A stretch of 64,000 nucleotides of DNA from Parafannyhessea umbonata (GTDB lineage Bacteria; Actinomycetota; Coriobacteriia; Coriobacteriales; Atopobiaceae). Both the position numbers and the translations under genes were made by a program. Location of the stretch: positions 62,001 through 126,000 of the forward strand of contig NZ_JABAGR010000001.1 of NCBI RefSeq assembly GCF_012844235.1, in the 5' to 3' direction. Position 1 is the stretch's first letter, and each line of letters opens with the position of its first letter. The notes under the pieces were generated by a model. The model did no database searches. It was not told the origin of the DNA and saw only the letters and a program-made list of their open reading frames with translations. Shown piece by piece: positions 41,208 through 57,817 of the stretch.

Positions 41208-42153
41208 CGCGTTTGGACGAGACGTCACCTACCTGCGGCTGAGCGTGACGGACCTCTGCAACTGCCGCTGCGTGTACTGCATGCCGGCGTGCGGCGTGCC
41301 GCGCCTGCGCCACGAGGACGTGCTCACGTTCGAGCAGATGCAAGAGATCGTGGCCGCCGCGGCGAGCCTGGGCGTGCGCAAGGTGCGCCTGACGGGCGGC
41401 GAGCCCCTGGTGCGCCGCGGAATCGTGGACCTGGTGCGCATGGTGGCGGACGTCCCCGGCGTGGAGGAGGTGGACATGACCACCAATGCCACGCTGCTGG
41501 CGCCCGTGGCGGCAGACCTGCGGGCGGCGGGCCTCACGCGGCTGAACGTGAGCCTGGACACGCTGGACGGCGCGCGCTACCGCAAGATCACGCGCACGGG
41601 CACGCTGGAGGACGCGCTTGCCGGGCTTGCGGCCGCGCGCGAGGCGGGCTTTTCCGGCACGAAGGTCAACTGCGTGCTGCTGGGCGGCATCAACCAGGAC
41701 GAGCTGCGCCCGCTTGCGGAGCTCGCGCGCGGAAGCGACCTCTGCGTCCGCTTCATAGAGCTCATGCCCATGGGTGCGTGCGCCGCGTGGCCGCGCGAGC
41801 GCTTCCTTCCGGCGGACGCCGTGCTCGCGGCCGTGCCGGAGCTCGTGCCCGCGGACGCGACCGCCCCCGGCGTGGCGCAGCTCTACCGCGCGCCGGGCTG
41901 GCGCGGCACGGTGGGGCTGATCCGGCCCATGACGCACAGGTTCTGCGGGCAGTGCAACCGCATACGCGTCACGGCGGACGGCAGGCTCAAGCCGTGCCTG
42001 CACTCCGCGCAGGAGGTGGACCTCCGCGGGCTTTCCGGGGAGGAGCTGGTGCGGGCCGTGGCGCGCGGCATCGCGGAAAAGCCCGGCAGGCACCACATGG
42101 ACATGGGGCACGCGAGCCAGACGCCGCGTGCCATGAGTCAGATAGGAGGCTGA
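41200..42153 (+). CDS. moaA: GTP 3',8-cyclase MoaA
   Basis: 317 residues. Radical-SAM cluster ligands Cys20, Cys24 and Cys27 ([12 protein letters not shown]), [11 protein letters not shown], and a C-terminal second Fe-S cluster from Cys249, Cys252 and Cys266 ([10 protein letters not shown] ... LKPCLHS). The C-terminus ends in GG as required for catalysis with MoaC. AAAGGAGGGGGAGG lies inside the end of modC, with an 8-bp overlap. First step of molybdopterin synthesis. Confidence 0.96.
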
Positions 42154-42155
42154 GC

Positions 42156-42629
42156 ATGGCGCTCACGCACTTCAACGAGCAGGGCCGCGCCCGCATGGTG
42201 GATGTTTCCCAGAAGCCCCGCACCCAGCGCACCGCGACGGCGGCCGGCAAGGTCCTCATGAGGCCGGACACCCTGGAGCTCGTGCGCACGGGCGGCGTGC
42301 GCAAGGGCGGCGTGCTCGCCGTGGCGCAGGTCGCCGGCATCATGGCGGCAAAGCGCACGTGGGAGCTGGTGCCCATGTGCCACCCCGTGCAGCTCACGGG
42401 CGTGGACGTGTCCTTCTCGCTAGAGGAGGACGGCATAGCGATCACGGCCACGTGCCGCTGCTGCGGCGAGACTGGGGTAGAGATGGAGGCGCTCACGGCG
42501 GCCAGCGTCGCGGGCCTCACCATCTACGACATGTGCAAGGCGCACCAGCGCGACATGGTGATAGACCGCGTGCGCCTAATGGAGAAGGACGGCGGCAAGT
42601 CGGGGCACTTCGTTCGGGAGGAAGGCTGA
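42156..42629 (+). CDS. moaC: Cyclic pyranopterin monophosphate synthase MoaC
   Basis: 157 residues, standard length. [16 protein letters not shown] at the start, [29 protein letters not shown] in the centre, and the catalytic Lys/Asp region [13 protein letters not shown], with DGGKSGH near the end. ATAGGAGG precedes the start. Completes the first pathway step with MoaA. moaD/moaE (molybdopterin synthase) are not in the window. Confidence 0.96.
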
Positions 42630-43123
42630 TGCGGGGTAGCGAGGAGCTGCAGGGCGGCGTGGGGCCGCGGGGAGGCGCCGGACGCGTGCTCGCCACGAGC
42701 GTGAGCGAGCGCAAGGGCACGCGCAAGCACCCGGTGGACGCGCTTGAGCTGCGCGTGGGCGTGGGGATCGTGGGCGACGCCCACGCCGGCGCGTGGCACC
42801 GGCAGGTGAGCCTGCTTCCCAACGAGAGCGTGGACCGCATGCGCGAGCGCGGGCTCGACCTTGCGGCCGGCGACTTTGCGGAGAACATCCTGACGGAGGG
42901 CCTCGTCCTGCGCGAGCTTCCCGTGGGGAGCGTGCTTGCGGTGGGGGAGTGCCGCCTGGTGGTGACGCAGATTGGCAAGACGTGCCACAACGACTGCGAG
43001 ATACGCCGCCTCACGGGCATGTGCGTCATGCCCACGGACGGCATATTCTGCGTGGTGGCGCGCGGCGGCAGCGTGCGCGCCGGCGACGCGGTGCGCGTGA
43101 TGGAAGAGGGTGAGCTTGCGTGA
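42629..43123 (+). CDS. MOSC-domain protein
   Basis: 164 residues; starts on the last base of the moaC stop. A beta-rich MOSC fold with VGIVGDAHAGAWHRQVSLL, the DLAAGDFAENILTEGL stretch and a conserved Cys in IGKTCHNDCEIRRLTG. MOSC domains bind sulfurated Moco and can carry sulfur; in selenium/Mo clusters such single-domain proteins are thought to aid cofactor transfer. It overlaps the next gene by 4 bp. Confidence 0.92.
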   Translation: MRGSEELQGGVGPRGGAGRVLATSVSERKGTRKHPVDALELRVGVGIVGDAHAGAWHRQVSLLPNESVDRMRERGLDLAAGDFAENILTEGLVLRELPVGSVLAVGECRLVVTQIGKTCHNDCEIRRLTGMCVMPTDGIFCVVARGGSVRAGDAVRVMEEGELA

Positions 43124-44256
43124 GCGAGTCCGGAATGAAACTGGTTGCGACCCAGGATGCCGTGGGGCACGTGCTGTGCCACGACATGACGCAGATCCTG
43201 CCCGGCGGCACGGACGCCAACGGCAACGAGCTGCCGCGCTACAAGGGCGCGCGCTTTCGCAAGGGCCACGTGGTGACGGCCGAGGACGTGCCGGTGCTTT
43301 TGAGCATGGGCAAGGCGCACCTGTACGTGTGGCAGAGGCGTCCGGGCTGGCTGCACGAGGACGAGGCCGCGCGCCGCATGGCCGCGCTGTGCCTGGGCGA
43401 GGGCTGCGTTGCCTCGGGCGAGCCGCGCGAGGGGAAGATCGGCATAAGCGCCGCCCACGACGGCGTGTTCCTGGTGGATTCCGAGCGCCTTGCGGCCGTG
43501 AACTCCGTGGACCAGGTGATGGTGGCCACGCGCCGCGGCAACTTTGGCGTGCGCGCCGGCGTCGCCCTCGCCGGAACCCGCGTGATCCCGCTCGTGATAG
43601 ACGGGCGGGTCGTGGCCCGGGCCGAGGCCGCGGCGGACGTCGCCGCGCACGGGCCGCTCATGCGCGTGGCGCCGTACGTCATGCGCACCGCTGCCGTGAT
43701 CGCCACGGGCTCGGAGGTCAAGAGCGGGCTGATCCAGGACCGCTTCACCCCCGTGGTGGAGCGCAAGCTCGCGCGCTACGGCGTCGCCGTCACGTGGCGC
43801 GCCACGCCGGGCGACGCGATGGAAGACGTGGTGGCCGCCATTGGCGAGGCCCGCGCCGCCGGGGTGGACATGGTGTTGTGCACGGGCGGCATGAGCGTGG
43901 ACCCGGACGACAACACTCCCGGCGCCATCAGGCGCGCCGGCGCGCGCATCGTCACGTACGGCGCTCCGGTGCTGCCGGGGGCCATGCTGCTGGTGGGCTA
44001 CTTCGACCCGGACGGCGCCGCGGGAAAAGCCGCAGCCGCGCCGCAGGACGCCGCGGGCAAGAGGGACGCGCGCCCCGTGCCCGTGGTGGGGCTGCCGGGG
44101 TGCGTCATGTACAACAAGGCGACAGTGTTCGACCTCGCGCTGCCGCGCCTGGTGGCGGGCGTGCCGCTCGCGAAGCGCGACTTCGTGGCCATGGGCGAGG
44201 GCGGGCTCTGCCTGGGCTGCGACCCGTGCACGTTCCCGCACTGCCCGTTTGCGTAG
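43120..44256 (+). CDS. Molybdopterin-binding protein, MoeA-like
   Basis: 378 residues from a GTG overlapping the MOSC stop. It has a MoaB/Mog-type MPT-binding core (VIATGSEVKSGLIQDRF, then VLCTGGMSVDPDDNTPGAI, with the GG-x-S-x-D pattern typical of MoeA domain III) but a shorter N-terminus than MoeA (~400), so it may be the truncated MoeA-like type found next to selenium/Mo hydroxylase genes. The C-terminus is Cys-rich (CLGCDPCTFPHC), possibly binding a metal. Probably inserts Mo or hands over the cofactor. Confidence 0.85.
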   Translation: MSESGMKLVATQDAVGHVLCHDMTQILPGGTDANGNELPRYKGARFRKGHVVTAEDVPVLLSMGKAHLYVWQRRPGWLHEDEAARRMAALCLGEGCVASGEPREGKIGISAAHDGVFLVDSERLAAVNSVDQVMVATRRGNFGVRAGVALAGTRVIPLVIDGRVVARAEAAADVAAHGPLMRVAPYVMRTAAVIATGSEVKSGLIQDRFTPVVERKLARYGVAVTWRATPGDAMEDVVAAIGEARAAGVDMVLCTGGMSVDPDDNTPGAIRRAGARIVTYGAPVLPGAMLLVGYFDPDGAAGKAAAAPQDAAGKRDARPVPVVGLPGCVMYNKATVFDLALPRLVAGVPLAKRDFVAMGEGGLCLGCDPCTFPHCPFA

Positions 44257-44287
44257 CGTCCCGCCTGCGTGGCGACCGTAGGCCATG

Positions 44288-44329
44288 GCCCTTCTCGCCC
44301 AGCGCATCGACGGGCGAGAAGGGCTTCTT
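44288..44329 (+). terminator. Terminator of the mod-moa operon
   Basis: Perfect 13-bp inverted repeat GCCCTTCTCGCCC (44288-44300) / GGGCGAGAAGGGC (44312-44324), loop of 11, followed by TTCTTC. It carries the motif GGGCGAGAAGG that recurs across the window. Confidence 0.75.
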
Positions 44330-44409
44330 CAGCTGCTTCAAAGCGCGTCCGTACAGCATTGGGTTATGGAGGGGGTCGGTGGGCTTCCTGCCCATACCAT
44401 CCATTCCCG

Positions 44410-45002
44410 CTATTGCTTCACCTTTCGGTACTTCTGCTTGCTGCTGGTTGGCTTGTTGGGTATGGTCCTCTCGATGAGCCCCTTTTCGAGGGCGGGGTCG
44501 AGGTAATTTCGCCTGAAGTATGTGCGGTGCTCTAGTCCAAGCCTCTGCATCATCTCGACACAGACATCTCTTTCCCATCCATGACGGCTAGGAGCTTGTC
44601 GACTTGATCACTGGACTCGGTCACTCCTTGGCGGCTCGACCTTCGTCACGAGCGGGGAGGACTCACCGCCTATGCCCGGTAGGCGGAAGTCGGCAAGACC
44701 GCTCGTCTCGAGCTCAAGAGTCAGGCGCTCCCGGTCCGGCTCCCAGAGCTCCTCGAGCAGAGGGTCGGGCTTACCGGCGCTGTACGTGCCCTCGCGCAGC
44801 GTGTCGTACCCGCTGCCAGCCCGCTCGCCAATGTTGGGCAGACTGAACATCGAGAGCAGCGTCTCGTTGCGGGGGTCAGAAGCTCCGCCCGCCTCAACCT
44901 CGTCCACCGCGATTCTGAGCGTGCCTGGATTGGATGCGATGATGCGGTCCGGCTTCCGCACGAGCACCACGCCGGTTCGCCCAAAGTAGTCGGCGTGAAC
45001 TT
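44410..45002 (-). pseudogene. Decayed COG2865 ATP-binding protein, C-terminal half (copy 2)
   Basis: On the minus strand from ~45002: VHADYFGRTGVVLVRKPDR, IIASNPGTLRIAVDEVEAG, LLSMFSLPNIGERAGSGYDT, PDPLLEELWEPDRERLTLEL, then frame changes and a winged-helix tail QRLGLEHRTYFRRNYLDPAL and KGLIERTIPNKPTSSKQKY before a stop at 44410. The N-terminal AlbA_2 half is absent. Highly similar to copy 1 at 16354-17002 and better preserved in its first half. It lies just before the lower-G+C sugar cluster. Confidence 0.72.
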
Positions 45003-45643
45003 ACGTCTGTGCGGGCCGGCAGAGTAACGCGAGCTGGTAAAAGGTGGTCTAGAGACCATATCTTTTCGGAATTTGCAACTATCTTGGCGACCCCTCGCCT
45101 TTTCCACTGAACGTTTGTATCCCGCACTTGCGGCGTTCCTCTCTAGTTCAAATAGTCTGACAGGCGCGCACCGTTTCCAGGATAAGTAGCAATATTCGAG
45201 TGACCATCGGAAGATTCGATACCCGACTGCCGGAACGACCGGCCGGAACGACCGGTGTTGTCGCGCTCGCTGCTGTCCGACTTTTTCAGTTCAATTGATG
45301 GCGGCACCGAAATTCAACAACAGGTTATGGGGTTTGTTGGAGGACGTTGATTTTTCTGGCGGCAGCGTGTCGGTTACAACAGTGGGTTCCGAATGCCAAC
45401 TTTGACCGTTTCGGTAGGAAAATCTGCCGTTCGCAGATATAAATGACGTAAACACAGAAGAAATCTTTGAAACACAGAAATACTCTTGTATAAAAAGGGT
45501 GTGCAAGGAAGGCTCGGGCAAGAGAGGCCGAATGGCAGTTTAGATAAACGCACAAATTCGGCCGCTCTCCAAGATACTGCGTCGATTCGCAGTGATGATT
45601 GGGTGTCCGGGGAAAGGTCAACGGTGTTATTGGAGGGGAAGTC
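45003..45643 (+). promoter_or_regulatory. Upstream region and promoter of the ydj-type operon
   Basis: 641 bp without a gene. A near-consensus promoter lies at TTGAAA (45467-45472), 16-bp spacer, TATAAA (45489-45494). The decamer AAACACAGAA occurs at 45450-45459 and again at 45470-45479, exactly 20 bp apart and overlapping the -35, a typical repressor operator layout; the DeoR-family regulator at the other end of the cluster is a candidate. A 13-bp tandem duplication (CCGGAACGACCGG twice) lies at 45230-45255. Confidence 0.6.
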
Positions 45644-46804
45644 ATGAAGGCACTTACTAGGTACTGCGACAATGGCGAGTTCGGCGGTTATCACTACATA
45701 GACATGCCGGTTCCCGAGTGTGGCCCCGACGACGTGATCATTCGCCTGAAGGCTGCTGCTATTTGCGGAGCCGACATGAAGCACTGGTATGCGGATTTGG
45801 AGGGAAAGAACACCTCGAAGACGCTCAACTCCATTCGTGGGCACGAGTTCGCCGGCGTAATCGTTAAGGTTGGCGAGAACGTGACCGATTGGAAGGTCGG
45901 CCAGCGCGTGGTGTCCGACAACGCCGGCAAGGCCTGCGGAAAGTGCCCCGCTTGCGAGCGCGGCGACTTCATGCTGTGCGAGCACAAGACCGGCCTTGGC
46001 CTGGACAACAACTACCAGGCCTTCGGTGGTACCGGTGGCTTCACCAAGTATGCGAAGATCCCCGGCGGCATCCTCAAGCTGCACCCCCATGCCATTTGGG
46101 AGATTCCCGATGGCGTGAAGTACGAAGAGGCCGCCGTGCTTGACCCGATTGCCAACTCCTACAAGGCAATCGCGCAGCAGTCCAGCTTCCTGCCTGGCCA
46201 GGACGTCGTCGTGTTTGGCACTGGCCCACTGGGTCTGTTTGCCGTGCAGGTAGCTCGCATCATGGGCGCCGTCAACATCGTGATGGTTGGTCTTCAGGAC
46301 GACGTTGAAACCAGGTTCCCGATTGCCCGCGAGGTCGGTGCAACTCACTGCGTCAACGGCTCCACCGAGGACGTCGTTAAGCGTTGCACCGAGATTTGCG
46401 GCCGTGACAACCTTGGACTGGTAGTGGAGTGCTCCGGCGCCAACATCGCCCTTAAGCAGTCCCTCGAGATGCTGCGCCCGAACGGCGAGGTCGTGCGCGT
46501 GGGCATGGGCTTCAAGCCGCTTGAGTTCTCGATCAACAACATCACCGAGTGGAACAAGAGCATCATTGGCCACCAGGCCTACGACTCCACCTCTTGGCGC
46601 GAGTGCATCCGTTTGCTCGCCTCCGGTGCGATAAACGTCCAGCCCATGATTACCCACCGTCTCGGTCTCTCCCAGTGGAAGGAGGGCTTCACCGCGATGG
46701 CCAACAAGTCCGCGGTTAAGTGCATCTTCCACTACGACGAGCCCGACAAGGACGAGAAGGCCTACGGCGAGGCGGACTACCCCGACGACTACGACTTCGA
46801 GTAA
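45644..46804 (+). CDS. Zinc-binding alcohol dehydrogenase, YdjL/sorbitol-dehydrogenase-like
   Basis: 386 residues of the medium-chain dehydrogenase family. Catalytic zinc residues: Cys in AAAICGADMKH, His-Glu in SIRGHEFAGV; structural zinc Cys set in ACGKCPACERGDFMLC; NAD(P) site VVVFGTGPLGLF. GGAGGGG precedes the ATG. An acidic tail of ~25 residues (EADYPDDYDFE) exceeds family length. First gene of the operon; it would oxidise a polyol or hydroxy-acid, or reduce the matching ketose. Confidence 0.88.
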   Translation: MKALTRYCDNGEFGGYHYIDMPVPECGPDDVIIRLKAAAICGADMKHWYADLEGKNTSKTLNSIRGHEFAGVIVKVGENVTDWKVGQRVVSDNAGKACGKCPACERGDFMLCEHKTGLGLDNNYQAFGGTGGFTKYAKIPGGILKLHPHAIWEIPDGVKYEEAAVLDPIANSYKAIAQQSSFLPGQDVVVFGTGPLGLFAVQVARIMGAVNIVMVGLQDDVETRFPIAREVGATHCVNGSTEDVVKRCTEICGRDNLGLVVECSGANIALKQSLEMLRPNGEVVRVGMGFKPLEFSINNITEWNKSIIGHQAYDSTSWRECIRLLASGAINVQPMITHRLGLSQWKEGFTAMANKSAVKCIFHYDEPDKDEKAYGEADYPDDYDFE

Positions 46805-46866
46805 GCAGGAGCATCGGTACCGGCTGGCTCCCGCGCGAGGAGCCAGCCTCTTTGGAAGAAGGGAAG

Positions 46867-47571
46867 ATGGCCCCTATGGATCACAAGCTCCTGCTTGCAC
46901 CGTCGATGGGCTGCTGCGACCTGTTCGATTTCGCCCATCAGGTGTCCTACATCGACGAACGAGCCGACTTTTTGCACATCGATATCAAAGATGGCAACTA
47001 CGTAAAGACCTACAGCATCGGTCCCGACTTCATGGCTGCGCTCAAGCCGCACGTGAAGACTCCTATGGACGCGCACCTCATGGTTAAGCATCCGCAGTGG
47101 ATTATCGAGGACTGCGCCAAGGCTGGTGCGACATACATAACCCCTCACGCCGACTGCATCGAGAGCGATGCGTTCGTTACCTTCAACAAGATCCTTTCCC
47201 TGGGATGCAAGGCGGGCGTCGCGCTTAACCCGGCCACCTCGCTGGAGACGATTCGTTACTACCTGCCGCTCTTATCGAAGGTCACCTTGATGATCGTGGA
47301 CGCCGGGTATGCCGGCCAAAAGGTAATTCCGCAGGTATACGACAAGATTCGCACCCTCGTGGAGTGGCGCAAGAGCATGCATCTGGACTTTCTCATCGAG
47401 GCAGACGGCTCTATGAACAAGGACGTTTATCGTCCGCTGTACGAGGCGGGTGCTGACGTGGTGGTCCTGGGCCCGCCTGCCCTTTGGAACAAGAATCCAA
47501 ACATCGAAAAGGCTTGGGACGTAATGCAGTCGGAGGTCGATTCTGAGCTGGCCGACGCAACGCGGTCCTAA
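46867..47571 (+). CDS. Ribulose-phosphate/allulose-phosphate 3-epimerase family protein
   Basis: 234 residues, TIM barrel. APSMGCCDLFDF, FLHIDIKDGNYV (His, Asp for the metal), MDAHLMVKHPQW, LMIVDAGYAGQKVIPQVYDK and IEADGSMNKD are the RPE-family landmarks, but the canonical VDGG is EADGS and HVMVNP differs, nearer to the AlsE-like side branch. Starts 62 bp after the dehydrogenase. E. coli ydj clusters lack it, so it may add an epimerisation step to the pathway. Confidence 0.8.
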   Translation: MAPMDHKLLLAPSMGCCDLFDFAHQVSYIDERADFLHIDIKDGNYVKTYSIGPDFMAALKPHVKTPMDAHLMVKHPQWIIEDCAKAGATYITPHADCIESDAFVTFNKILSLGCKAGVALNPATSLETIRYYLPLLSKVTLMIVDAGYAGQKVIPQVYDKIRTLVEWRKSMHLDFLIEADGSMNKDVYRPLYEAGADVVVLGPPALWNKNPNIEKAWDVMQSEVDSELADATRS

Positions 47572-47613
47572 CGAAATAACGAGTGCGAGAAGAAACACCG
47601 AGAGGAAGCGAAC

Positions 47614-48996
47614 ATGGACAATACCAAGGGCGCCAACATTGGTGCCAGGCTTGACCGGCTGCCCGATTCGAAGTGGCACGTGAAGATGTGGCTCATCACC
47701 GCTTTCGCGTTGCTGGTGTGCTGGTCGAACGGCATTAGCGGCGCCGTCCAAAACATCCTGCTGAACGAGGTCCACTGGCTCGAGAAGGGTAGCACCCTCC
47801 TGGCGTTGTGGGGAACCACCTACACCATTGGCCAGCTGTTCGGCGCTTTGGTCGGCGGCCCCATCGGCGACAAGATTGGCCGTAAGAAGTCGATCATCCT
47901 GTACGAGTGCATCCACATCGCGGTAATGATTGGCGCCGCACTTGCTCCCAACGTGTACGTGCTGTACTTCTTTAGGCTTGCCCAGGGATTTGGCCTCGGT
48001 GCTCTGCTGGTGGTTCTGTTTGCCGGCTTCACCGAGTACGTGCCAAGCCGCAACCGCGGAACCTGGTCCAGCCGCACGTCGTTCATCGGCAACTGGGCTC
48101 ACCCCATTTGCAACCTCATCGCCCTTCTGCTGATGGGCTCGGGCATGGCCATGAGCATGAACTGGCGCGTTGAGTTCATGATTCCTTCGGTCCTTTCCAT
48201 CGTTGCCACCATCATGGTTTGGAAGAAGTTCCCCGAGTCCCCGCGTTGGCTTGAGTCGCAGGGTCGCGTGGAAGAGGCCGACGCCATCGTTACGAAGATT
48301 GAGAAGGAGATCGAGGCGTCCACCGGCAAGCCCCTGCCTCCCGTTACCGAGCCCCCTGCGGAGGTTAAGCGTCTTCCTTATTCGGCTCTGTTCCACGGCA
48401 AGCTGCTGCGTCGTACCATCGTCGGTTCGCTCGTCCTCATTGGCATGAACACGATTCAGTACACGCTCATGACATGGATGCCCACCCTTATGAACGGCCT
48501 TGGCTACGACACCTCGCAGTCCCAGTTCATGACCGTGTTTGGCCTGTTTGGCGCACCCTTCGGCATCTTCATCGCTTCTCTCATCATGGACAAGGTGCCG
48601 CGCAAGAAGATGGGCATGTTCCTCCTCGTTGGCATGGCGGTGTTCGGAGTCCTTATTGGCTTCCTCACCTCGATGGGCCTTGTGAATATGGTCGGCCTCA
48701 TCGTCCTCACGTTCATCATGAACACGATCATTTACATGTACGTTTGCTACGCGTCGGCGGTGTATGTGCCCGAGATGTGGCCCACTTCCGCAAAGCTCTC
48801 TGGCTCTGGCTTCTGCAACGCAATGGGCCGTGTGAGCAACGTGTTCTTCCCGTTCCTTGTTACCGCACTTGCCGCCCAAAGCTCGAGCTACGTGTTCATG
48901 CTTCTGGCCGCCGTGGCAATTATCATCGCGGTTTGCGTTGGTGCCTTCGGCGTGGAGACTCGCGGCGAGTCCGTCGAGGCAATCGGCAACGTGTAA
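47614..48996 (+). CDS. MFS permease, metabolite:H+ symporter (YdjK/YdjE-like)
   Basis: 460 residues, twelve transmembrane segments with the MFS loop motif GGPIGDKIGRKKS after TM2 and PESPRWLESQGRVEEAD after TM6, typical of sugar/acid symporters. GAGAGGAAGC precedes the ATG. It lies in the middle of the operon and would bring in the substrate. Its closest functional neighbours by gene context are YdjK and YdjE of E. coli, whose substrates are not known with certainty. Confidence 0.87.
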   Translation: MDNTKGANIGARLDRLPDSKWHVKMWLITAFALLVCWSNGISGAVQNILLNEVHWLEKGSTLLALWGTTYTIGQLFGALVGGPIGDKIGRKKSIILYECIHIAVMIGAALAPNVYVLYFFRLAQGFGLGALLVVLFAGFTEYVPSRNRGTWSSRTSFIGNWAHPICNLIALLLMGSGMAMSMNWRVEFMIPSVLSIVATIMVWKKFPESPRWLESQGRVEEADAIVTKIEKEIEASTGKPLPPVTEPPAEVKRLPYSALFHGKLLRRTIVGSLVLIGMNTIQYTLMTWMPTLMNGLGYDTSQSQFMTVFGLFGAPFGIFIASLIMDKVPRKKMGMFLLVGMAVFGVLIGFLTSMGLVNMVGLIVLTFIMNTIIYMYVCYASAVYVPEMWPTSAKLSGSGFCNAMGRVSNVFFPFLVTALAAQSSSYVFMLLAAVAIIIAVCVGAFGVETRGESVEAIGNV

Positions 48997-49142
48997 CAGT
49001 CCCTTCGCACCACACCACCACGCAACTTTGCGTTCCTCCTCCCTGGGTCGCCGGCGTCTTGGAACCGGCGTCGGCGGCTCCCCGTCACTTATGAAACACC
49101 TGCTCTGCATCACAACTCACACGTTCACAAAGGAGTAGAGAA

Positions 49143-50213
49143 ATGAAGAACTCCAAAGCCATTCTGGTTACCCCCAAGCACTTTGAGATAAAAGAAGCGC
49201 CCGTTCCCGAGCCCGGTCCCAAAGAGGTGCTGATCAAGGTCAGCTATGTTGGAATGTGCGGCTCCGACATCCACGGGTTCGAGTTCGGCCCCTTCATCCC
49301 TCCCAAAGACCCCAACCAGGAGATTGGCCTCGGCCACGAGGTTTCCGGCGAGGTCGTTAAGGTGGGCAAGGATGTAACCAAGTTCAAGCCCGGCGACAAG
49401 GTGCTGGTAGAGCCCGGCGTGCCCGACAGCTCATGCGAGTACTGCCGCACCGGCAGGTACAACATTTGCCCCGACGTGGACTTCATGGCTACCCAGCCCA
49501 ACTACCGCGGCGCCCTGTGCCAGTACATGACGCACCCCGAGGACTGGGTGTACCCCGTGCCCGAGGGTATGAGCATGGTGGAGGCCGCACTCGTTGAGCC
49601 CGCTGCCGTCGGCATGCACGCGGCCATCCTGGGCGGCGCTTCCTTGGGAAGCCACATCGTAATTCTTGGCTGTGGCACCATCGGCCTCATGACCCTCCAG
49701 GCCTGCCGCAGCCTTGGCGCCACTGACATTACCGTCGTGGACGTCATTCCCTCGAAGCTCGAGCTGGCAAAGAAGCTCGGAGCCAAGGAGGCCATCAACG
49801 GCAAGGAAGTGGATACCGTAAAGTACCTGCGTTCCGACGAGAAGTTCGGCGACCACGGCGTTGACCTCGTATTCGAGTGCGGTGGTTCCGGCTTCCTCGC
49901 ACAGCAGGCGGTGCAAATAGTTGCCCGCGGCGGAAAGATCATGATGGTCGGAACGCAGAGCAAGCCCGTGCCCATCGACTTCCTCAAGATCAATCGCGAG
50001 GTCACCATTCAAACCTCCTTCCGTTACTGCAACGACTACCCCCGCACCATCGAGGCAATCGCCACGGGCAAGTTCAACGTGAAGGACATGGTCACCAACG
50101 TTTACGACTATAAGGACGTGCAGCAGGCGTTCACCGATGCCATCGATCCACAGAAGAAGGTCGACATGGTAAAGGGCGTCGTGAAGGTCGCCGGAACTCC
50201 GGGCTGCGAGTAG
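49143..50213 (+). CDS. Zinc-binding alcohol dehydrogenase, YdjJ/xylitol-dehydrogenase-like
   Basis: 356 residues, medium-chain dehydrogenase. VGMCGSDIHGF and LGHEVSGEV carry the catalytic zinc ligands; the second zinc lobe has CEYCRTGRYNIC (one of the usual four Cys replaced, preceded by DSSC); VILGCGTIGLMTLQ binds NAD(P). AAAGGAG precedes the ATG. Second dehydrogenase of the operon, of the sorbitol/xylitol type; two such enzymes also occur in the E. coli ydj cluster (YdjJ, YdjL). Confidence 0.9.
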   Translation: MKNSKAILVTPKHFEIKEAPVPEPGPKEVLIKVSYVGMCGSDIHGFEFGPFIPPKDPNQEIGLGHEVSGEVVKVGKDVTKFKPGDKVLVEPGVPDSSCEYCRTGRYNICPDVDFMATQPNYRGALCQYMTHPEDWVYPVPEGMSMVEAALVEPAAVGMHAAILGGASLGSHIVILGCGTIGLMTLQACRSLGATDITVVDVIPSKLELAKKLGAKEAINGKEVDTVKYLRSDEKFGDHGVDLVFECGGSGFLAQQAVQIVARGGKIMMVGTQSKPVPIDFLKINREVTIQTSFRYCNDYPRTIEAIATGKFNVKDMVTNVYDYKDVQQAFTDAIDPQKKVDMVKGVVKVAGTPGCE

Positions 50214-50282
50214 TTCGCATAAAACTCTTATCTATTAATCGTTGAGGAGCCCTACTGGCGCCTCGAAGTGAAGGGAGTAGTC

Positions 50283-51125
50283 ATGCTTGCCAACATCAAG
50301 TACTGGGAGAACAAGGCCAAGGACGGTCAGTTTGCAATTCCGCACTTCAACGTTTGGAACGCCGAGATGCTCATGGGCGTTATCGACGCGGCGGAGGAGG
50401 ACAACGCCCCCGTTATCATCTCGTTCGGTACGGGCTTCGTGGGCAACACTTCGTTCGAGGACTTCTGCTGGATGATGGTCTCCATGGCAAAGAACGCCAA
50501 GGTGCCCGTTATTACCCACTGGGACCACGGCCGCAGCATGGACATCATCAAGAACGCCTACACCCACGGCATGAACTCCGTCATGCGCGACGCCTCGGCC
50601 CTGCCCTTCGAGGACAACGTGAAGGAAATCAAGACCGCCGTCGATTACTTCCATCCTCTGGGAGTGCCCGTGGAGGCCGAGCTTGGTCACGTGGGTAACG
50701 AGACGGTGTACGAGGAGGCCCTTGCCGCCTATGCCTACACCGACCCCTCCAAGGCTGCAGAGTTCGTTGAGCGCACCGGCTGCGACTCGCTTGCCGTCGC
50801 AATTGGTAACGTCCACGGCCACTACTCCGCCACCCCCAAGCTCAACTTCGAGGTTGTTGAGAAGTGCCGTGACGCCGTAAGCGTTCCCCTGGTTCTGCAC
50901 GGTGCCTCCGGCATTGGCGACGAGGACATCAAGACCGCCATTTCCCTGGGCATCGCGAAGATCAACATCCACACCGAGCTGTGCGACGCCGCCATGGGCG
51001 CAATCCAGAAGAACACCGACAAGTCGTTCCTGGAGCTCGAGCGTGCGGTTCGCCAGGCGGTCAAGGAGCGCGCCCTGTACAAGATCGAGCTGTTCGGCGA
51101 CGCCGACAAGGCAGACCTTAGGTAG
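50283..51125 (+). CDS. ydjI: Class II ketose-bisphosphate-type aldolase (YdjI-like)
   Basis: 280 residues, zinc aldolase. WDHGRSMD gives the zinc His region, EAELGHVGNETVYEEA the second ligand segment, AVAIGNVHGHYSATPKLNF the third His, and LHGASGIGDEDIKTAI the phosphate loop. The ATG at 50283 follows GAAGGGAG. E. coli YdjI prefers long-chain uronate 1-phosphates rather than fructose bisphosphate, so the partner kinase and reductase here may act on an unusual sugar acid or polyol. Kinase gene begins 6 bp later. Confidence 0.87.
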   Translation: MLANIKYWENKAKDGQFAIPHFNVWNAEMLMGVIDAAEEDNAPVIISFGTGFVGNTSFEDFCWMMVSMAKNAKVPVITHWDHGRSMDIIKNAYTHGMNSVMRDASALPFEDNVKEIKTAVDYFHPLGVPVEAELGHVGNETVYEEALAAYAYTDPSKAAEFVERTGCDSLAVAIGNVHGHYSATPKLNFEVVEKCRDAVSVPLVLHGASGIGDEDIKTAISLGIAKINIHTELCDAAMGAIQKNTDKSFLELERAVRQAVKERALYKIELFGDADKADLR

Positions 51126-51131
51126 GTCGCC

Positions 51132-52145
51132 ATGTCTACCAACGCAACCCAGGGTTGTCCCGACGCGTCCGCTGCGCAAAGCGCCAATAAACCCTTGGAC
51201 GTGGTGTGCGTAGGCGCAGCAATCGTGGACGTTCCCCTGCAGCCCGTGAGCAAGGACATCTTCGACAACGAGTCCTACCCCCTTGAGCAAATAAGCATGA
51301 CCATAGGCGGCGATGCCATCAACGAGTCGACCATCATCAGCCGGCTTGGGCACAAGGTCGGTCTCATGAGCATGGTCGGCAAGGACGTCGTAGGAGATTT
51401 CATTCTTGATCACTGCCGCAAGGAAGGAATCGACACCCAGGGCATGAAACTGCGCGAGGGAGTCAATACCTCCATCAACGTGGGCCTCGTTACGGCCGAT
51501 GGCGAGAGGACCTTCGTCACGAACCGCAACGGCAGTCTTTGGAAGATGGGTATTGAGGACGTTGATCTGGGGCTCATTGCCCGTGGAAGACTTCTTTCGC
51601 TGGCGAGCTTCTTCAACAACCCTCGCCTGAACAACGATGCCCTCGTGAGGATCTTCAAGGTGGCAAAGTCGGCCGGCATGGTAATAACGGCCGACATGAT
51701 CAAGCCCCGCCTTGGCGAGACCTTCGACGACATTGCCGAGGCCCTATCGTACGTGGACTACTTCTTCCCCAACTGCGATGAGGCTCGCCTTATGACGGGG
51801 GAGGACGATATCGAGTGCGTTGCCGACAAAATCCTGTCGTACGGCGTGAAGCATGTCGTGATAAAGATCGGCAAGCAGGGAGTGTTCATCAAGGGGCAGG
51901 ACGGCCAGAAGGTCATCGTCCCCGCCATGAAGGGCATCATCGCCGTGGACACCATCGGCGCGGGCGACAACTTCGCCTCCGGCTTCATCACGGGACTTCT
52001 GGAAGGCAAGTCTTTGGTCGAGTGCGGCGAGTACGGAAACGTCGCCGCCTCGCTGGCCATCACAAGTATCGGCGCGACTACGGGCGTGAAGAGCAGGGAT
52101 TTGTTTGACCGCCAGCTTGCACACTACAAGCAGCAGTACGCCTAA
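51132..52145 (+). CDS. ydjH: PfkB-family carbohydrate kinase (YdjH-like)
   Basis: 337 residues. N-terminal glycine-rich SMTIGGDAINES and LGHKVGLMSMVGKDVVGD; C-terminal signature DTIGAGDNFASGF with the catalytic Asp. The first ~20 residues are a flexible extension. Located directly after the aldolase, so it likely forms the 1-phosphate that the aldolase then cleaves, as proposed for YdjH/YdjI. Followed by a terminator-like hairpin. Confidence 0.9.
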   Translation: MSTNATQGCPDASAAQSANKPLDVVCVGAAIVDVPLQPVSKDIFDNESYPLEQISMTIGGDAINESTIISRLGHKVGLMSMVGKDVVGDFILDHCRKEGIDTQGMKLREGVNTSINVGLVTADGERTFVTNRNGSLWKMGIEDVDLGLIARGRLLSLASFFNNPRLNNDALVRIFKVAKSAGMVITADMIKPRLGETFDDIAEALSYVDYFFPNCDEARLMTGEDDIECVADKILSYGVKHVVIKIGKQGVFIKGQDGQKVIVPAMKGIIAVDTIGAGDNFASGFITGLLEGKSLVECGEYGNVAASLAITSIGATTGVKSRDLFDRQLAHYKQQYA

Positions 52146-52152
52146 CTTCTCT

Positions 52153-52213
52153 AGCCCCCTGGGCCAAGCGTTTTCATATGCACAAGAGTGCAAATGTCCT
52201 GGCCCAGGGGGCT
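52153..52213 (+). terminator. Long-stem hairpin between ydjH- and ydjG-like genes
   Basis: AGCCCCCTGGGCCA (52153-52166) pairs perfectly with TGGCCCAGGGGGCT (52200-52213), a 14-bp stem with a 33-nt loop, followed by TCTCTA. Probably ends or attenuates the first half of the operon. The large loop is unusual. Confidence 0.6.
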
Positions 52214-52261
52214 TCTCTATAGCATCTATATCAATCAGTAAACTAAGTAAGGATGGATACC

Positions 52262-53248
52262 ATGCGCTACATGGAACTTGGAAGCTCGGGCATTCAGGTC
52301 TCGAAGATGGGTTTGGGAACGTGGGCGATTGGCGGCGGCCCCGCCTGGAGCGGAGGCCCCGACGAGGACAAGGCTGTCGACACCATTGTTGCCGCAGTTG
52401 ACGCCGGCATCAACATGATCGACACCGCTCCTGGCTACAACTTTGGCAACAGCGAGCGCATCGTTGGCAAGGCCCTGAAGAAGCTGGATCGCTCCAAGGT
52501 GATCCTGGTCACCAAGTGCGGCGTGGTGTGGAACCGCAAGGGCACGGTTTGGAACAAGGTGGGCGACCGCCAGCTGTACAAGAACCTCACGCCCGAATCG
52601 GTCCGCCTTGAGGTCGAGGAGTCGCTCGAGCGCCTTGGTACCGACTACATCGACCTGTACATGACGCACTGGCCCTCCGTCGAGCCGTACTACACGCCCA
52701 TTAGCGAAACGGTTGCCGAGCTTAACAAGCTCAAGAGCGAGGGCAAGATTCGCGCCATCGGTGCCGCCAACGTAAGCATCCCCCAAATTAAGGAGTACCT
52801 GGCTTGCTGCGAGCTGGACCTGGTGCAGGGCAAGTACAGCGTGCTCGACCGTGCCGTGGAGGACGAGCTTATTCCGCTGTGCAAAGAGAACAAGATCACA
52901 ATGCAGGCGTACTCGCCGCTTGAGCAGGGCCTTCTTACCGGAACCATTACGAAGGACTACCGCCCCGAGCCCGGTAACGCGCGCGCCAACAAGAAGTGGT
53001 GGCAGCCCGGCAACATGGAGCGCGTCATCGACATGCTCGATGCCTGGAAGCCGCTTGCGCGGAAGTACAACTGCAGCATTCCCACTCTTTGCCTGGCCTG
53101 GATTATGAACCAGGGCGACACCGTTAACCTCCTCACCGGCGCAACCTCGCCCGAGCAGGTGCGCCAGAACGCTCCTGCCGCGGACATCGTTCTTTCCGAA
53201 GAGGACAAGCAGGTTATGAGAGAGATGGCCGAGGACCTGGACAAGTAG
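52262..53248 (+). CDS. ydjG: Aldo/keto reductase, YdjG-like
   Basis: 328 residues. The sequence follows E. coli YdjG closely over its length: MGLGTWAIGGGPAW, DTAPGYNFGNSE (catalytic Asp-Tyr pair), TKCGVVWNRKGT, KVGDRQLYKNL, YMTHWPSVEPYYTPI and YSPLEQGLLTGTIT. I chose ATG 52262 because AAGGA is suitably spaced; ATG 52253 adds three residues. YdjG reduces methylglyoxal in vitro with NADH; in this pathway it may reduce an aldehyde product of the aldolase. Confidence 0.92.
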   Translation: MRYMELGSSGIQVSKMGLGTWAIGGGPAWSGGPDEDKAVDTIVAAVDAGINMIDTAPGYNFGNSERIVGKALKKLDRSKVILVTKCGVVWNRKGTVWNKVGDRQLYKNLTPESVRLEVEESLERLGTDYIDLYMTHWPSVEPYYTPISETVAELNKLKSEGKIRAIGAANVSIPQIKEYLACCELDLVQGKYSVLDRAVEDELIPLCKENKITMQAYSPLEQGLLTGTITKDYRPEPGNARANKKWWQPGNMERVIDMLDAWKPLARKYNCSIPTLCLAWIMNQGDTVNLLTGATSPEQVRQNAPAADIVLSEEDKQVMREMAEDLDK

Positions 53249-53309
53249 GCACGGCTCTAGCGGTGGGGGCGTGCGATCGTGCGGATGGTAAGGCTGAGGG
53301 GAGGCAACT

Positions 53310-54719
53310 ATGAGCGACAAAATGGCTGAGGATGCGCGGGAGAAATCGATACAATCTTCGAATAAAAAGGCTGGGCACTCCATAGTTCGAAGGATTTTCA
53401 TCGCGGTAATACTTGGCTTTCTTGCGGGTGCAGGATGCTTGGCGCTGCGCATGCAGCTGGGCAATACGAATCCAGTGTGGGAGAGCCTGAACAGTCTATT
53501 GTTCGTCGACATTACCTCGGAGGCGGGGGTCAATGGCATCGGACTCTTCTACATTGTGGGCCAGCTGTTCATGCATGCCCTGCAGGTTGCCATCGTTCCG
53601 CTGGTGCTCACTTCTTTGTCGCTCGCTCTCTGTAGCCTTACCGATCCAAAGAAGCTCAGCAGCATTGCAATTAAGACGATCATTACCTTCCTGTGCTTCT
53701 ATGCGGTAACGGCCGCCCTCGCCGCGACCATTGCGTACTCAGTTAAGGCAGCGGGCGGGTTTACGGTAACGCTTCCGAATGGCCGGGCAACCGAGCTTGC
53801 AACCATTGACTCCTATAACCCGCTCTCTACGATTATCGACGTTGTGCCCAGCAACCTGCTGTCCGCGTTTTCCTCGAACAACTCCATTTTGGCCGTGTGC
53901 TTCGTGGCCATAGTTCTTGGAATTTGCATGTCACGCATGGGCGATAAGGTGAAGCCATTGAAGGACGTTCTGGAGAACCTCAACGACATAATCAACATGT
54001 GCCTCACCTTCGTGATCAACCGCTGCGCGCCCGTTTCGATCTTCTGCATGATTACTCGCGGTCTCGCGTTGTACGGAATCGAGTACATTCGCCCGACTCT
54101 CGTGTGGATGGCGACCACCATCGTGGGTTGCATAGGTCTTCTCTTCATCATCTATCCGCTTGGAATTCTCCTCACTACGCGACTCAACCCGATTCCGTTC
54201 ATTCGCAAGACTGCCAAGATCGCATTGTTTGGCGCGGCTACCCAGTCGTCCGCAGCGACGCTGCCTCTGAACATGAAAACGTGCATGGAAGAGCTCGGCT
54301 GTCCCGAAGAAATAACAAGCTTTGTTATGCCTACCGGAATGACCGTTCACATGAACGGAACCACCGCCATGCAAATAATCGCGGTGACCTTCATCGCAAC
54401 TGCCGCCGGCATCGATATGACTCCGAGCATGCTCGTGGTTGCGGCGTTGATCTCGGTGTCGTGCGCGTTCGGAACGCCTCCTATTCCAGCTGCGGGTACA
54501 ACCCTGGTATACGTGGTAATGCTTGGCGTTGGATTAAACACTCCCCTGTGCATGACGTGCTACTCGCTCGTTCTTGCCATGAACTACCTTCCCGGAATGG
54601 CTGTTATGCCCATGAACGTAGTTGGCGATGCCGCCACGAACGTGATTGTGAGCTTTGGGGAAGACATGTTGGACAAGAAAAAATACATGAGCGGTGTCAG
54701 TAGAAGCTACTCTCGTTGA
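53310..54719 (+). CDS. Dicarboxylate/amino acid:cation symporter (DAACS)
   Basis: 469 residues with eight or so membrane helices and two re-entrant loops: the HP1-like stretch AATQSSAATLPLNM (Ser-rich) and, in TM7/HP2, PTGMTVHMNGTTAMQI and CAFGTPPIPAAGT. Family: GltP/DctA/SstT. GAGGGGAGGC precedes the ATG. It would take up an acidic or neutral amino acid or dicarboxylate with Na+ or H+. Not part of E. coli ydj; it may import a substrate of this pathway or be an add-on. Confidence 0.9.
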   Translation: MSDKMAEDAREKSIQSSNKKAGHSIVRRIFIAVILGFLAGAGCLALRMQLGNTNPVWESLNSLLFVDITSEAGVNGIGLFYIVGQLFMHALQVAIVPLVLTSLSLALCSLTDPKKLSSIAIKTIITFLCFYAVTAALAATIAYSVKAAGGFTVTLPNGRATELATIDSYNPLSTIIDVVPSNLLSAFSSNNSILAVCFVAIVLGICMSRMGDKVKPLKDVLENLNDIINMCLTFVINRCAPVSIFCMITRGLALYGIEYIRPTLVWMATTIVGCIGLLFIIYPLGILLTTRLNPIPFIRKTAKIALFGAATQSSAATLPLNMKTCMEELGCPEEITSFVMPTGMTVHMNGTTAMQIIAVTFIATAAGIDMTPSMLVVAALISVSCAFGTPPIPAAGTTLVYVVMLGVGLNTPLCMTCYSLVLAMNYLPGMAVMPMNVVGDAATNVIVSFGEDMLDKKKYMSGVSRSYSR

Positions 54720-55073
54720 AAGCCTGAATATAGTCTTATAGCTATGCCAGGTTGCCAATTACTGAGGGTGGAGTCGGAGTTGTCTCCGGCTCCACCCGAC
54801 TCAAACAGGATGCCGTATACCGTATGGATTGTTTACTATGGAATAATATGGGAACAGAACCATGGGATATGTATGACAGCTATTGCTACCAGATGCGATT
54901 CTCTGCCAAGGGGTTGCGAATCATGGAGTTGTTCTTTGCGGGTGCGGCGAATCACCTTTGTTTTCGCTAGCGTCTCTTTTAATTTTCAGGATAATTCCAA
55001 GCCCCTAGCAGTCACGTCTTAAATTGCGTCGGTTCAGCCTTACAGAGTCCTGTAACAATATGGGGTTGGAAAG
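54720..55073 (+). promoter_or_regulatory. Spacer with hairpin before the DeoR gene
   Basis: 354 bp. A hairpin GGGTGGAGTCGGAG (54766-54779) / CTCCGGCTCCACCC (54784-54797), one mismatch/G-U, lies 50 bp after the symporter but has no T tract, so its terminator role is uncertain. The A+T-rich remainder probably holds the regulator's promoter. Small ORFs here show no protein-like features. Confidence 0.45.
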
Positions 55074-55832
55074 ATGAAGGCATCAGAGCGCCAAGAGCAG
55101 ATGAAACAGCTAATCCATTCTGCGAATCGCGTGAGTGTTGCGGAACTCAGCGAACAGTGGGGAATTACCGAAGAAACTGTGCGACGAGATTTGGATAAGC
55201 TTGAATCCCAGGGCAGCATTACGCGTGTTCACGGTGGAGCCATTTGGAACGGCAGCATCGATATGGGCGGTGTGCATTTTCTGCGTCGACAGCTAAGCAA
55301 CGCAAAAGAAAAAGGCCGCATAGCGCTTAAGGCTGCGGAAGTTATTCGGTCGCGAGAGACAATCATCGCGGACGCCAGTTCCACTGTTTTGGAAGCATTA
55401 AAGGCCGTCGGCGACGACAGTCGTCTCACTGTGGTAACCAATTCGTCTAAGATTTGCGACGGCAGCTTCGAGCCCTCGTACAACCTCATTTGCACTGGGG
55501 GTACCTACAATTGGAAGTCCCTCTCGTTTCAGGGGGAGTCGGCCATACAAACAATACGGAAGTATCACGTTGACCTAGCCATACTAAGCTGCAAGGCCTT
55601 GGATATCTCCCGTGGCGTCATGGACTCCTATGAGAGCGAGGCAGTTGTGAAGCGCGTGATGGAGGCTCAGGCAAATGAGGTGGCTATTCTGGCCGATCAC
55701 ACCAAGTTCGACAAGGTCGCCCTCCTGAAGTTGATGGACTTGGATGGAATCTCCTACATTATTACCGACCAAAAACCGTCGAATTCTTGGGTATCCCTGT
55801 GTGCCGACAAGAAAATCGACCTCATTTACTAG
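55074..55832 (+). CDS. DeoR/GlpR-family repressor (YdjF-like)
   Basis: 252 residues. N-terminal DeoR winged HTH (ASERQEQMKQLI, RVSVAELSEQWGITEETVRRDL, then LESQGSITRVHGGA) and a C-terminal sugar-phosphate sensor with VVTNSSKIC, FEPSYNLICTGGTYN and ADHTKFDKVALL. GGTTGGAAAG precedes the ATG. It closes the ydj-type cluster, as YdjF does in E. coli, and is the likely repressor of the operon promoter near 45.47 kb. Confidence 0.9.
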   Translation: MKASERQEQMKQLIHSANRVSVAELSEQWGITEETVRRDLDKLESQGSITRVHGGAIWNGSIDMGGVHFLRRQLSNAKEKGRIALKAAEVIRSRETIIADASSTVLEALKAVGDDSRLTVVTNSSKICDGSFEPSYNLICTGGTYNWKSLSFQGESAIQTIRKYHVDLAILSCKALDISRGVMDSYESEAVVKRVMEAQANEVAILADHTKFDKVALLKLMDLDGISYIITDQKPSNSWVSLCADKKIDLIY

Positions 55833-56175
55833 CCTTTAAATAGCGGAATTGTGGATGCTGTATTAGAGCTTCGGTGGCTTGACTGCGTACCTGAAGCGAT
55901 TTCAACGGCGATCTCGAGTTGTTGCTCGAGTAGTGCTGTCGGAACATTAGCGAGGATATGCGAAACGGGCGAAAGGCGCGGCTGGGGGGCATGCTTTGCC
56001 GCGGGACGCCTTGTGGAGCGGGCGAGGATGACAACGTGGTCGCGCTTGTACGGGTTCGATAGCACCTGAGTTGATTTCGGGCATGTAGACGATTTCCCGG
56101 CTAAAAGACCTCGAAGATGAAGATGCGGAGACGTAGGCAATCGCCTCGAGGAGGTGGCAACGCTTGGATATTAAA
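55833..56175. other. Gene-free stretch, possible eroded minus-strand coding sequence
   Basis: 343 bp. A minus-strand frame across ~55829-56140 contains protein-like runs (NPYKRDHVVILARSTRR, SHILANVPTALLEQQLEIAV) but no homologue comes to mind and no start or ribosome site is visible. It adjoins the third COG2865 relic and may belong to the same eroded locus. Confidence 0.35.
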
Positions 56176-56540
56176 CTAGTTGGTATCGTTGCCGGCAGAA
56201 TCTCTCGGTTGGGTCACTTGCCCGCTGAGCTTGACATTAATGGCGTTTCTACCTACATTTCCGCCATAGATTTTGTTACTCCCGAGCGACTTAACATCCA
56301 TTACTAGCGGGAAGGTCTTGCCGTCTATATCTGATGGGTGGAAGACGGTTGGTTCGATTGCTCCAAATTCAAGGATATGGTGCTCCCGGCCTGATTTCTG
56401 TACGAACATCACACCGAATCGTCCAAAGTAGTTAGCGAGAACGAGTGCGTTCGTCAGCACCTCTCGCATGACACATGTCGCGGCATATCGTCGATGGACT
56501 GCGTGCCGGTCGAAGTCCTCACGAGAATGGGCATCCCGCG
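56176..56540 (-). pseudogene. Decayed COG2865 ATP-binding protein fragment (copy 3)
   Basis: On the minus strand, TSTGTQSIDDMPRHVSC reads in one frame and, after a frame change near 56470, REVLTNALVLANYFGRFGVMF, the same E-x-x-x-N-A-L-x-x-A-x-Y-F-G-R element seen in copy 2 (VHADYFGRTGVVLV). Beyond it the sequence (HHILEFGAIEPTVFHPSD to the stop at 56176) no longer resembles copies 1 and 2, so this is a chimeric or more distant relic. It forms the right border of the lower-G+C sugar insert. Confidence 0.5.
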
Positions 56541-56704
56541 GATAGCATACGGCATGCCTCGAACCAGAAATTGAATAAGTTGTTCGCCGGGCGGCGGGGT
56601 AGCATGGTGGGCGAGAAGGGCGGCGGCGCGGGGTGCGCGACGGCCGTGTGGGCAAGCATGACGCCGGCCGCCGCCGTGCGGCCCGCGAGCGAGGGGAGGC
56701 CGGG

Positions 56705-57817
56705 ATGGCGCTTGAGGTCAGGAGGGCGACTGCGGGGGACCTGGAGCCGCTGTGGGGGCTGTACGCTGCGTCGTGCGCGCGGCAGGTTCCGGGCGACATG
56801 GGGCCGGACTGGCACATGGGGGTGTATCCCGCGAGGTCGGACATGGAGGGGCGCCTTGCCGCGGGCGAGTTGTACGTGGGCGAGCAGGACGGCGCCCTCG
56901 TTGCCGGCATGGTGGTGGCCAAGGGCGAGGACCCGATCTACGCAAGGGTGCCGTGGCGGGTGCCGGCCGCGCCGGACGAGGTGGCGGTGCTGCACCTTCT
57001 GGTGGTGGACCCCGCGGCTCGCGGGCGCGGCGTGGGCGGCCGGATGGTGGCCGCAGCCGCCCGCGTGGCCCGGCAGGCGGGCATGCGGGCGCTCCACCTG
57101 GACACGCTGGAAACCAACGTCGGCGCCATCGCGCTGTACAAGGGGTGCGGGCTTTCCGTGGCATGCGTGATGCCCGTGCACTACGAGGACATTGGCGACG
57201 CGAGCACCGTGCTGTTCGAGCTCGCGCTGGACGGGGGCGCCGCGGACGACTCCGACGGCGTGGCCGGGGCCGCAGGCGCCGGTGGCGCGGCCAAGGCGGA
57301 CGCCGCGTGCCGCAAGGGCGCGGGCCACGGCGGCGAGCCCTTCTCGGTGGAGGTCATCACCGTGAGCGACCGCTCGTTTAGGGGCGAGCGGCCGGATGCG
57401 AGCGGACCGGCGCTCGTGGAGCTTGCGGAGCGCCACGGGTATCGCGTGGTGGCGACGCGCCTGGTGCCGGACGAGCGCGAGCGGATAGAGGCGGAGCTGC
57501 GCGACGCGGCCGCGCGCGGGGTGGCGCTGGTGCTGACCACCGGGGGCACGGGGTTCTCGCCGCGCGACGTGACGCCGGAGGCCACGGCCGCCGTGTGCGA
57601 GCGCATGGCGCCGGGCATCCCGGAGGCCATGCGGGCGGCGTCGCTTGCGATCACGCCCAAGGCGTGCCTCTCGCGCGAGGTCGCGGGCATCGTGGGGCGC
57701 ACGCTGGTGGTGAACCTTCCCGGCAGCCCCAAGGCCGCGGTAGAGAACGTCTCCGCCGTGATCGGGCCCATCGCGCACGGGCTGGGCATCCTGCGCGGCG
57801 AGGCGCTGGACGGCTAG
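56705..57817 (+). CDS. GNAT acetyltransferase fused to MogA/MoaB molybdopterin adenylyltransferase
   Basis: 370 residues. N-terminal GNAT domain (1-~178: VAVLHLLVVDPAARGRGVGG is the acetyl-CoA loop, then TLETNVGAIALYKGCG), a ~35-residue Gly/Ala linker, and a C-terminal Mog/MoaB domain (~217-370: EVITVSDRSFRGERPDASGP, and the MPT-site motif TTGGTGFSPRD at 278-288 followed by VTPEATA). The ATG at 56705 follows GAGGGGAGG. Mog adenylates molybdopterin before metal insertion, so this supplies a step missing from the mod-moa operon 13 kb away. The acetyltransferase fusion is unusual. Confidence 0.87.
   Translation: MALEVRRATAGDLEPLWGLYAASCARQVPGDMGPDWHMGVYPARSDMEGRLAAGELYVGEQDGALVAGMVVAKGEDPIYARVPWRVPAAPDEVAVLHLLVVDPAARGRGVGGRMVAAAARVARQAGMRALHLDTLETNVGAIALYKGCGLSVACVMPVHYEDIGDASTVLFELALDGGAADDSDGVAGAAGAGGAAKADAACRKGAGHGGEPFSVEVITVSDRSFRGERPDASGPALVELAERHGYRVVATRLVPDERERIEAELRDAAARGVALVLTTGGTGFSPRDVTPEATAAVCERMAPGIPEAMRAASLAITPKACLSREVAGIVGRTLVVNLPGSPKAAVENVSAVIGPIAHGLGILRGEALDG

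Follow-up and report, generated by a model that had tools for sequence, protein, structure and literature searches.

An epimerase-bearing subtype of the ydj carbohydrate operon in Parafannyhessea umbonata

A 64,000-nucleotide stretch of the genome of the gut-type bacterium Parafannyhessea umbonata (contig NZ_JABAGR010000001.1; the whole stretch is hereafter the window) carries at 45644-55832 nine genes on the + strand, all with intact frames, that match the ydj carbohydrate operon of Escherichia coli with two additions, a predicted sugar epimerase and a symporter of the DAACS family. Epimerase-bearing ydj loci are a recurrent subtype of this operon. The present analysis adds the definition of this subtype, which is a variation on an already known operon and combines an epimerase of the RPE/AlsE fold with fixed alterations at the active site and an altered DAACS carrier. 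The operon probably serves the catabolism of an uncommon long-chain sugar or sugar acid bearing a carboxylate, in which a C3-epimerase that has no hold on a phosphate at the far end of the sugar would correct the wrong epimer.

The gene set and its recurrence

Seven of the nine genes encode orthologues of E. coli K-12 proteins (43-77% identity; identities to E. coli proteins are from BLASTP) and follow the E. coli order L-K-J-I-H-G-F, that of ydjLKJIHG and ydjF at NC_000913 1854096-1861332. The initial annotation had assigned two zinc dehydrogenases, an MFS permease, a YdjI-like aldolase, a YdjH-like kinase and a DeoR regulator to the E. coli ydj set, and this is borne out. The zinc dehydrogenases are YdjL (ZnDH1, 45644-46804, 72%; Pfam ADH_N and ADH_zinc_N) and YdjJ (ZnDH2, 49143-50213, 61%), and the YdjK-type MFS permease (47614-48996) is 51% identical to YdjK and 39% to YdjE. 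For the class II aldolase (50283-51125, 77% to YdjI) and the PfkB kinase (51132-52145, 63% to YdjH) the nearest solved structures by sequence are those of YdjI (PDB: 6ofu, E = 3.5e-143) and YdjH (PDB: 3h49/3in1, E = 3e-128). The aldo-keto reductase (52253-53248), earlier described as very close to YdjG, is indeed 65% identical to it and scores above the cut-off of the NCBIfam YdjG equivalog, the NADH-dependent methylglyoxal reductase NF049922 (560.1 bits against 550). The DeoR regulator (55074-55832; Pfam HTH_DeoR and DeoRC) is 43% identical to YdjF.

For the two remaining genes BLASTP against E. coli K-12 finds no ydj counterpart. The epimerase gene (46867-47571) lies between ydjL and ydjK; its residues are numbered here from the ATG at 46867, and the comparisons took a start at 46870 or 46867. 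The other gene (53310-54719), between ydjG and ydjF, was rightly recognized as an added cation symporter (Pfam SDF). Compared with E. coli the cluster also lacks ydjE, the second MFS gene, an absence that the annotation did not mention; the rest of the genome was not searched for YdjE. The description of the locus as an extended ydj operon therefore stands as regards the two additions, but these belong to a recurrent subtype and are not the extension of one locus.

A pattern scan of a genome collection returned 105 aldolase relatives, of which the best 80, from other genomes, were retained and read as ydjI loci. The epimerase is present in 33 of these 80, and the comparison of such loci that the annotation had proposed places it directly before ydjK in 33/33. 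ydjL directly precedes it in 32/33, the exception (L070) starting at a contig edge on that side. Since this placement recurs, a chance arrangement is excluded. DAACS genes accompany 26/33 epimerase loci and 7/47 of the others, and YdjE genes 0/33 and 23/47, respectively; these counts are lower bounds, because in some loci genes are lost from view at a contig end. An MFS carrier is found in 33/33 epimerase loci. By the phylum of the record name, 28 epimerase loci belong to Bacillota, three to Actinomycetota and one to Pseudomonadota (L009, a doubtful name match), with one unassigned. Full-text searches of open-licence PMC papers, judged by titles and the starts of abstracts, listed no description of an epimerase-containing ydj locus.

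Other arrangements were seen among the 80 loci. Eight (L031, L033, L035, L049, L051, L057, L059 and L061) are ordered L-J-I-G-H, have no MFS relative and adjoin genes that, by inspection, encode a HAAT-like ATP-binding cassette (ABC) transporter; such genes also occur in L034 and L040, both with an MFS gene. In the Gilliamella loci L064, L068 and L069 the ydj genes are rearranged and distributed over two strands. The genes neighbouring the other ydj types (HAAT-type ABC, sugar ABC, 5-oxoprolinase-like, RraA-like and aminotransferase, all named by inspection) were considered as a guide to the substrate and indicate no single one, because the companions vary between loci.

The epimerase and its altered active site

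The top structural match of an epimerase model (predicted local distance difference test score 90.1) is AlsE (PDB: 3ct7; Z 33.6, 1.4 Å over 219 residues, 40% identity in the structural alignment); the RPE/AlsE fold predicted here is by itself no proof of function. AlsE is likewise the best NCBIfam match (NF007266), with 245.9 bits against an equivalog cut-off of 271. Both metal-binding histidines and both catalytic aspartates of RPE and AlsE are retained in the ydj epimerases. Two active-site places are altered, and for this reason the earlier label of an RPE/AlsE-like epimerase holds for the presence of the enzyme and for its fold, but is too simple for the protein as a whole.

The first of the three RPE active-site methionines is lysine (Lys41 in the window protein) in 32/32 readable ydj rows, while the other two are kept in 33/33. 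Two rows, L070 at a contig edge and L027 with its end outside the frame read, are gapped at some columns and are not counted as readable there. The second altered place is the loop after strand 8, which reads GPPALW (Pro203, Pro204) in the window epimerase, GTSGLF in AlsE and GSAIF in E. coli RPE. Its first proline is found in 31/32 and its second in 32/32 readable rows, with the variants GSPALW in L012 and GAPALW in L094. The backbone of this loop presumably binds the distal phosphate and needs NH groups to do so, which prolines do not offer.

Both changes go with the ydj setting. The 397 genomes of the Lachnospiraceae-centred family to which locus L029, from the gut bacterium Schaedlerella arabinosiphila, belongs yield 18 epimerase matches in 17 genomes (E ≤ 1e-40). 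Seven of these have at least 62% identity, and all seven lie between ydjL- and ydjK-type genes and carry DIK and GPP. The eleven remoter matches (33-45% identity) have Met in ten cases and Leu in one, none has a proline in the loop, and no ydj neighbours were found within their loci of ~3.6 kb. G140 and G235 of this family are the genomes of L029 and L010, and their matches do not count as independent of the locus set; L110 (G248) has an internal TAA inside the matched stretch. A quick tree places 32 ydj epimerases on one side of a branch with support 100; several of the outsiders are long-branched. These sequence comparisons set the ydj epimerase apart from ordinary AlsE and RPE and place it in a separate subfamily.

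The enzyme could still act as a conventional 3-epimerase on D-allulose 6-phosphate or ribulose 5-phosphate and supply the operon with a ketose phosphate, in which case the residue changes would be neutral. The AlsE matches by profile and structure and the intact metal and acid-base residues favour this, but the profile score lies below the cut-off, the changes are fixed throughout the ydj group and do not occur in the eleven remoter relatives, and the E. coli aldolase acts on a ketose 1-phosphate, to go by excerpts of the reports cited below. We regard it as unlikely. A second alternative arises from the role of the methionines, which excerpts of a review describe as bridging to the C2 oxyanion and forming a proton-free cushion there that prevents isomerization (PMC9978339). 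With lysine in one of these positions the chemistry might be altered, the keto group moving between C2 and C3 (a 2-keto to 3-keto sugar isomerase) with no inversion at C3. Such a shift is equally improbable, given that the remaining two methionines are kept throughout; nor do we know of any isomerase in the RPE/AlsE family.

Instead, the enzyme can be expected to be a C3-epimerase whose substrates are ketose 1-phosphates or free keto acids. A C1-based pathway would gain little from an epimerase dependent on a distal phosphate, and it is in the presumed phosphate loop that the ydj enzyme is changed. A more far-reaching proposal, which we put forward tentatively, is that the ydj epimerase represents a new branch of the RPE family acting on ketose 1-phosphates or on free ulosonic or uluronic acids, with Lys41 holding the C1 side and the distal-phosphate loop rebuilt, and that with it and a DAACS protein turned sugar-acid carrier gut bacteria might live on epimers of the natural ydj substrate that are of no use to E. 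coli.

Substrate class, proposed pathway and the DAACS carrier

According to excerpts of two reports, the preferred substrates of E. coli YdjH and YdjI are long-chain sugars ending in a carboxylate, and YdjI forms octuluronate 1-phosphate from dihydroxyacetone phosphate (DHAP) and L-arabinuronate (PMC9602453, PMC11194214). The window aldolase falls below the cut-off of every tagatose- and fructose-bisphosphate aldolase equivalog listed, and Arg84 and Arg102, which we selected as the arginines separating YdjI from other class II aldolases, are kept in 82/82 aldolase sequences. It is thus very unlikely that common tagatose or fructose phosphates are what the operon degrades and that its likeness to ydj is only general: the aldolase does pass the broad ketose-bisphosphate aldolase subfamily TIGR00167 (293.1 bits, cut-off 215.6), but its 77% identity to YdjI, the equivalog scores and the two arginines speak against this. 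The annotation's suggestion that the substrate is probably an uncommon sugar acid or polyol was reasonable, and the gene set appears consistent with an uncommon acidic sugar.

In the proposed pathway, the MFS and DAACS carriers would import the sugar or sugar acid and the two zinc dehydrogenases would convert it to a 2-ketose. The C3-epimerase would correct a wrong configuration at C3, either on the C1-phosphate or on the free acid. YdjH phosphorylates its sugar at C1, and the YdjH-type kinase would do the same here; the YdjI-type aldolase would then split the ketose 1-phosphate into DHAP and an aldehyde acid, to be reduced by the YdjG-type reductase. The YdjF-type DeoR repressor would act at direct repeats before ydjL. 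The order of these steps, the substrate, the specificities of the epimerase and the DAACS carrier and the direction in which the latter transports are what we infer from the whole of the locus. A similar logic operates in the sulfo-Embden-Meyerhof-Parnas pathway of sulfofructose, where an anionic ketose is handled by a C1 kinase, a DHAP-releasing aldolase and an aldehyde reductase; the window aldolase, however, is of the YdjI type (class II). Sulfofructose kinase (PDB: 7ag6) is a distant match of the window kinase (E = 1.3e-8).

The DAACS protein resembles GltPh, DctA and GltP in its SDF domain, the serine-rich helical hairpin 1, an NMNGT-like motif of the NMDGT type and Asn401 (GltPh numbering), while helical hairpin 2 contains GTPPIPAAG. 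In GltPh, Asp394 holds the amino group of the substrate, Arg397 and Thr314 the side-chain carboxylate and Asn401 the alpha-carboxylate, as stated in excerpts of a published account (PMC4900748). The window carrier has Gly in place of Asp394 and Val in place of Arg397. Of the 33 DAACS proteins from the loci one (L076) ends before the ligand region; none of the 32 readable ones has Arg at position 397, all have Asn at 401, and at 394 a Gly is found in 31 of them and a Glu in the remaining one, L038. As controls, E. coli GltP shows Asp and Arg and DctA shows Arg. Judging by these residues, an aspartate-like or C4-dicarboxylate substrate seems unlikely for the window carrier.

In two loci (L037 and L048) the DAACS gene occupies the MFS place and no MFS relative was found, which argues that the DAACS protein carries the substrate of the pathway. 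This tells against the alternative that it exports the end product, the reduced aldehyde acid, or imports something else. In favour of that alternative, a DAACS gene is seen in only 26/33 epimerase loci, L034, L084 and L085 among the other seven continuing without one and some being cut at contig ends, and the MFS carrier is present in every epimerase locus; we consider it rather unlikely, with import of the pathway substrate preferred.

Several observations weigh against the reading of the operon as a pathway for an acidic sugar with a C3-epimerase of its own. The epimerase is dispensable: it was not seen in 47/80 loci, some of which are cut at contig ends, and genome G039 lacks it, although the aldolase and the other ydj genes are there. 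On the aldolase tree (77 scored rows, five without a visible ydjL having been left out) its presence needs eight changes, four of them forced by starred branches, so that it does not track the aldolase tightly. Lys41 could serve something other than the C1 group, and the phosphate-binding role of the loop is our assumption. As to the carrier, the loss of Arg397 would also fit a neutral substrate and so by itself is no argument for an acid, and the amino-acid carrier SstT shows Gly and Gln in the 394 and 397 columns. The SstT row appears to be out of register, which leaves this control unsettled; its Asn is misaligned, and by inspection a shift of four places would bring an Asp to 394. Being dispensable, the epimerase would widen or correct the intake of the pathway and not be essential to it.

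The subtype would set two constraints, namely that the ydj substrate has a C3 epimer met by some gut bacteria and that the epimerase tolerates a far end without a phosphate. An excerpt of a published study reports that the ydjL promoter of E. coli becomes active in the gut of mice (PMC6561318). G039 and G040 belong to one genus and form a natural pair, differing in the presence of the epimerase; they share 99.2% identity over 11.3 kb, starting just past the epimerase place. The loci L099 and L100, from two genomes of one genus, are 91.9% identical on the ZnDH1 side and 99.2% over the remainder, with the switch at the missing epimerase, a pattern that suggests recombination at this place. The Aggregatibacter locus L077 is likewise without the epimerase, and the best epimerase match in that genome is 35% identical.

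Candidate operator and genomic island

Upstream of ydjL lies a candidate operator (45449-45478, + strand) made of two copies of GAAACA(A/C)AGA 20 bp apart, at 45449-45458 with one mismatch and at 45469-45478 without. At up to one mismatch the motif occurs three times in the whole window, the third site being at 47592. At least one copy is present in the ~330 bases around the start of the ydjL frame in 30/32 epimerase loci, 17/22 YdjE-type loci and 8/20 others, compared with means of 0.04-0.09 per stretch in the three groups for shuffles, which preserve base composition only. Because the motif was chosen from sequence upstream of ydjL in the epimerase loci themselves, a fair test is possible only with E. 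coli and the remaining ydj types; E. coli K-12 has two copies before ydjL (shuffled mean 0). We infer that the repeats may be the operator of the DeoR protein. A scan for consensus promoters and terminators gave fewer sites than the shuffles (2 against 4.7 and 8 against 11.7), and for this reason no claim about either is made.

The operon lies within a 12.4-kb island (44259-56657), defined by flank alignment and by a drop in G+C content, that is missing from the congener G055. There (L101) the counterparts of window positions 41559-44258 and 56658-56772 are only 28 bases apart. The G+C fraction is 0.52-0.60 in the 44-56 kb bins and 0.69-0.73 in the adjacent ones; in contrast to E. coli ydj, the set lies on an island in a high-G+C genome. 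Among the 140 genomes of the window's family, the host genome being one of them, the aldolase was found in six (E ≤ 1e-90) and the epimerase in five (E ≤ 1e-60), and the two listed congeners have neither; three of the family genomes (G120, G078 and G019) are also the records of L011, L012 and L015 and hence not independent of them. This patchy spread and the empty site in G055 point to horizontal acquisition of the ydj island. End-to-end comparison of the island flanks gave only a 47-base similarity of 77% (near 44954-45000 and 56396-56442) and very short matches.

The island is bordered by a moeA-like gene on one side and a GNAT/mog-like gene on the other. Its surroundings are molybdenum-cofactor genes, with moaA-, moaC-, mog- and moeA-like genes on the left (41179-44256) and the GNAT/mog-like fusion on the right (56633-57817), all named by inspection; within its GNAT part a stretch of about half a kilobase (56773-57297) finds no alignment in G055. 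Near the left end of the island, on the - strand at 44608-44970, lies a partial C-terminal ATPase domain of the RecG type (HATPase_c_4, E = 4.3e-9).

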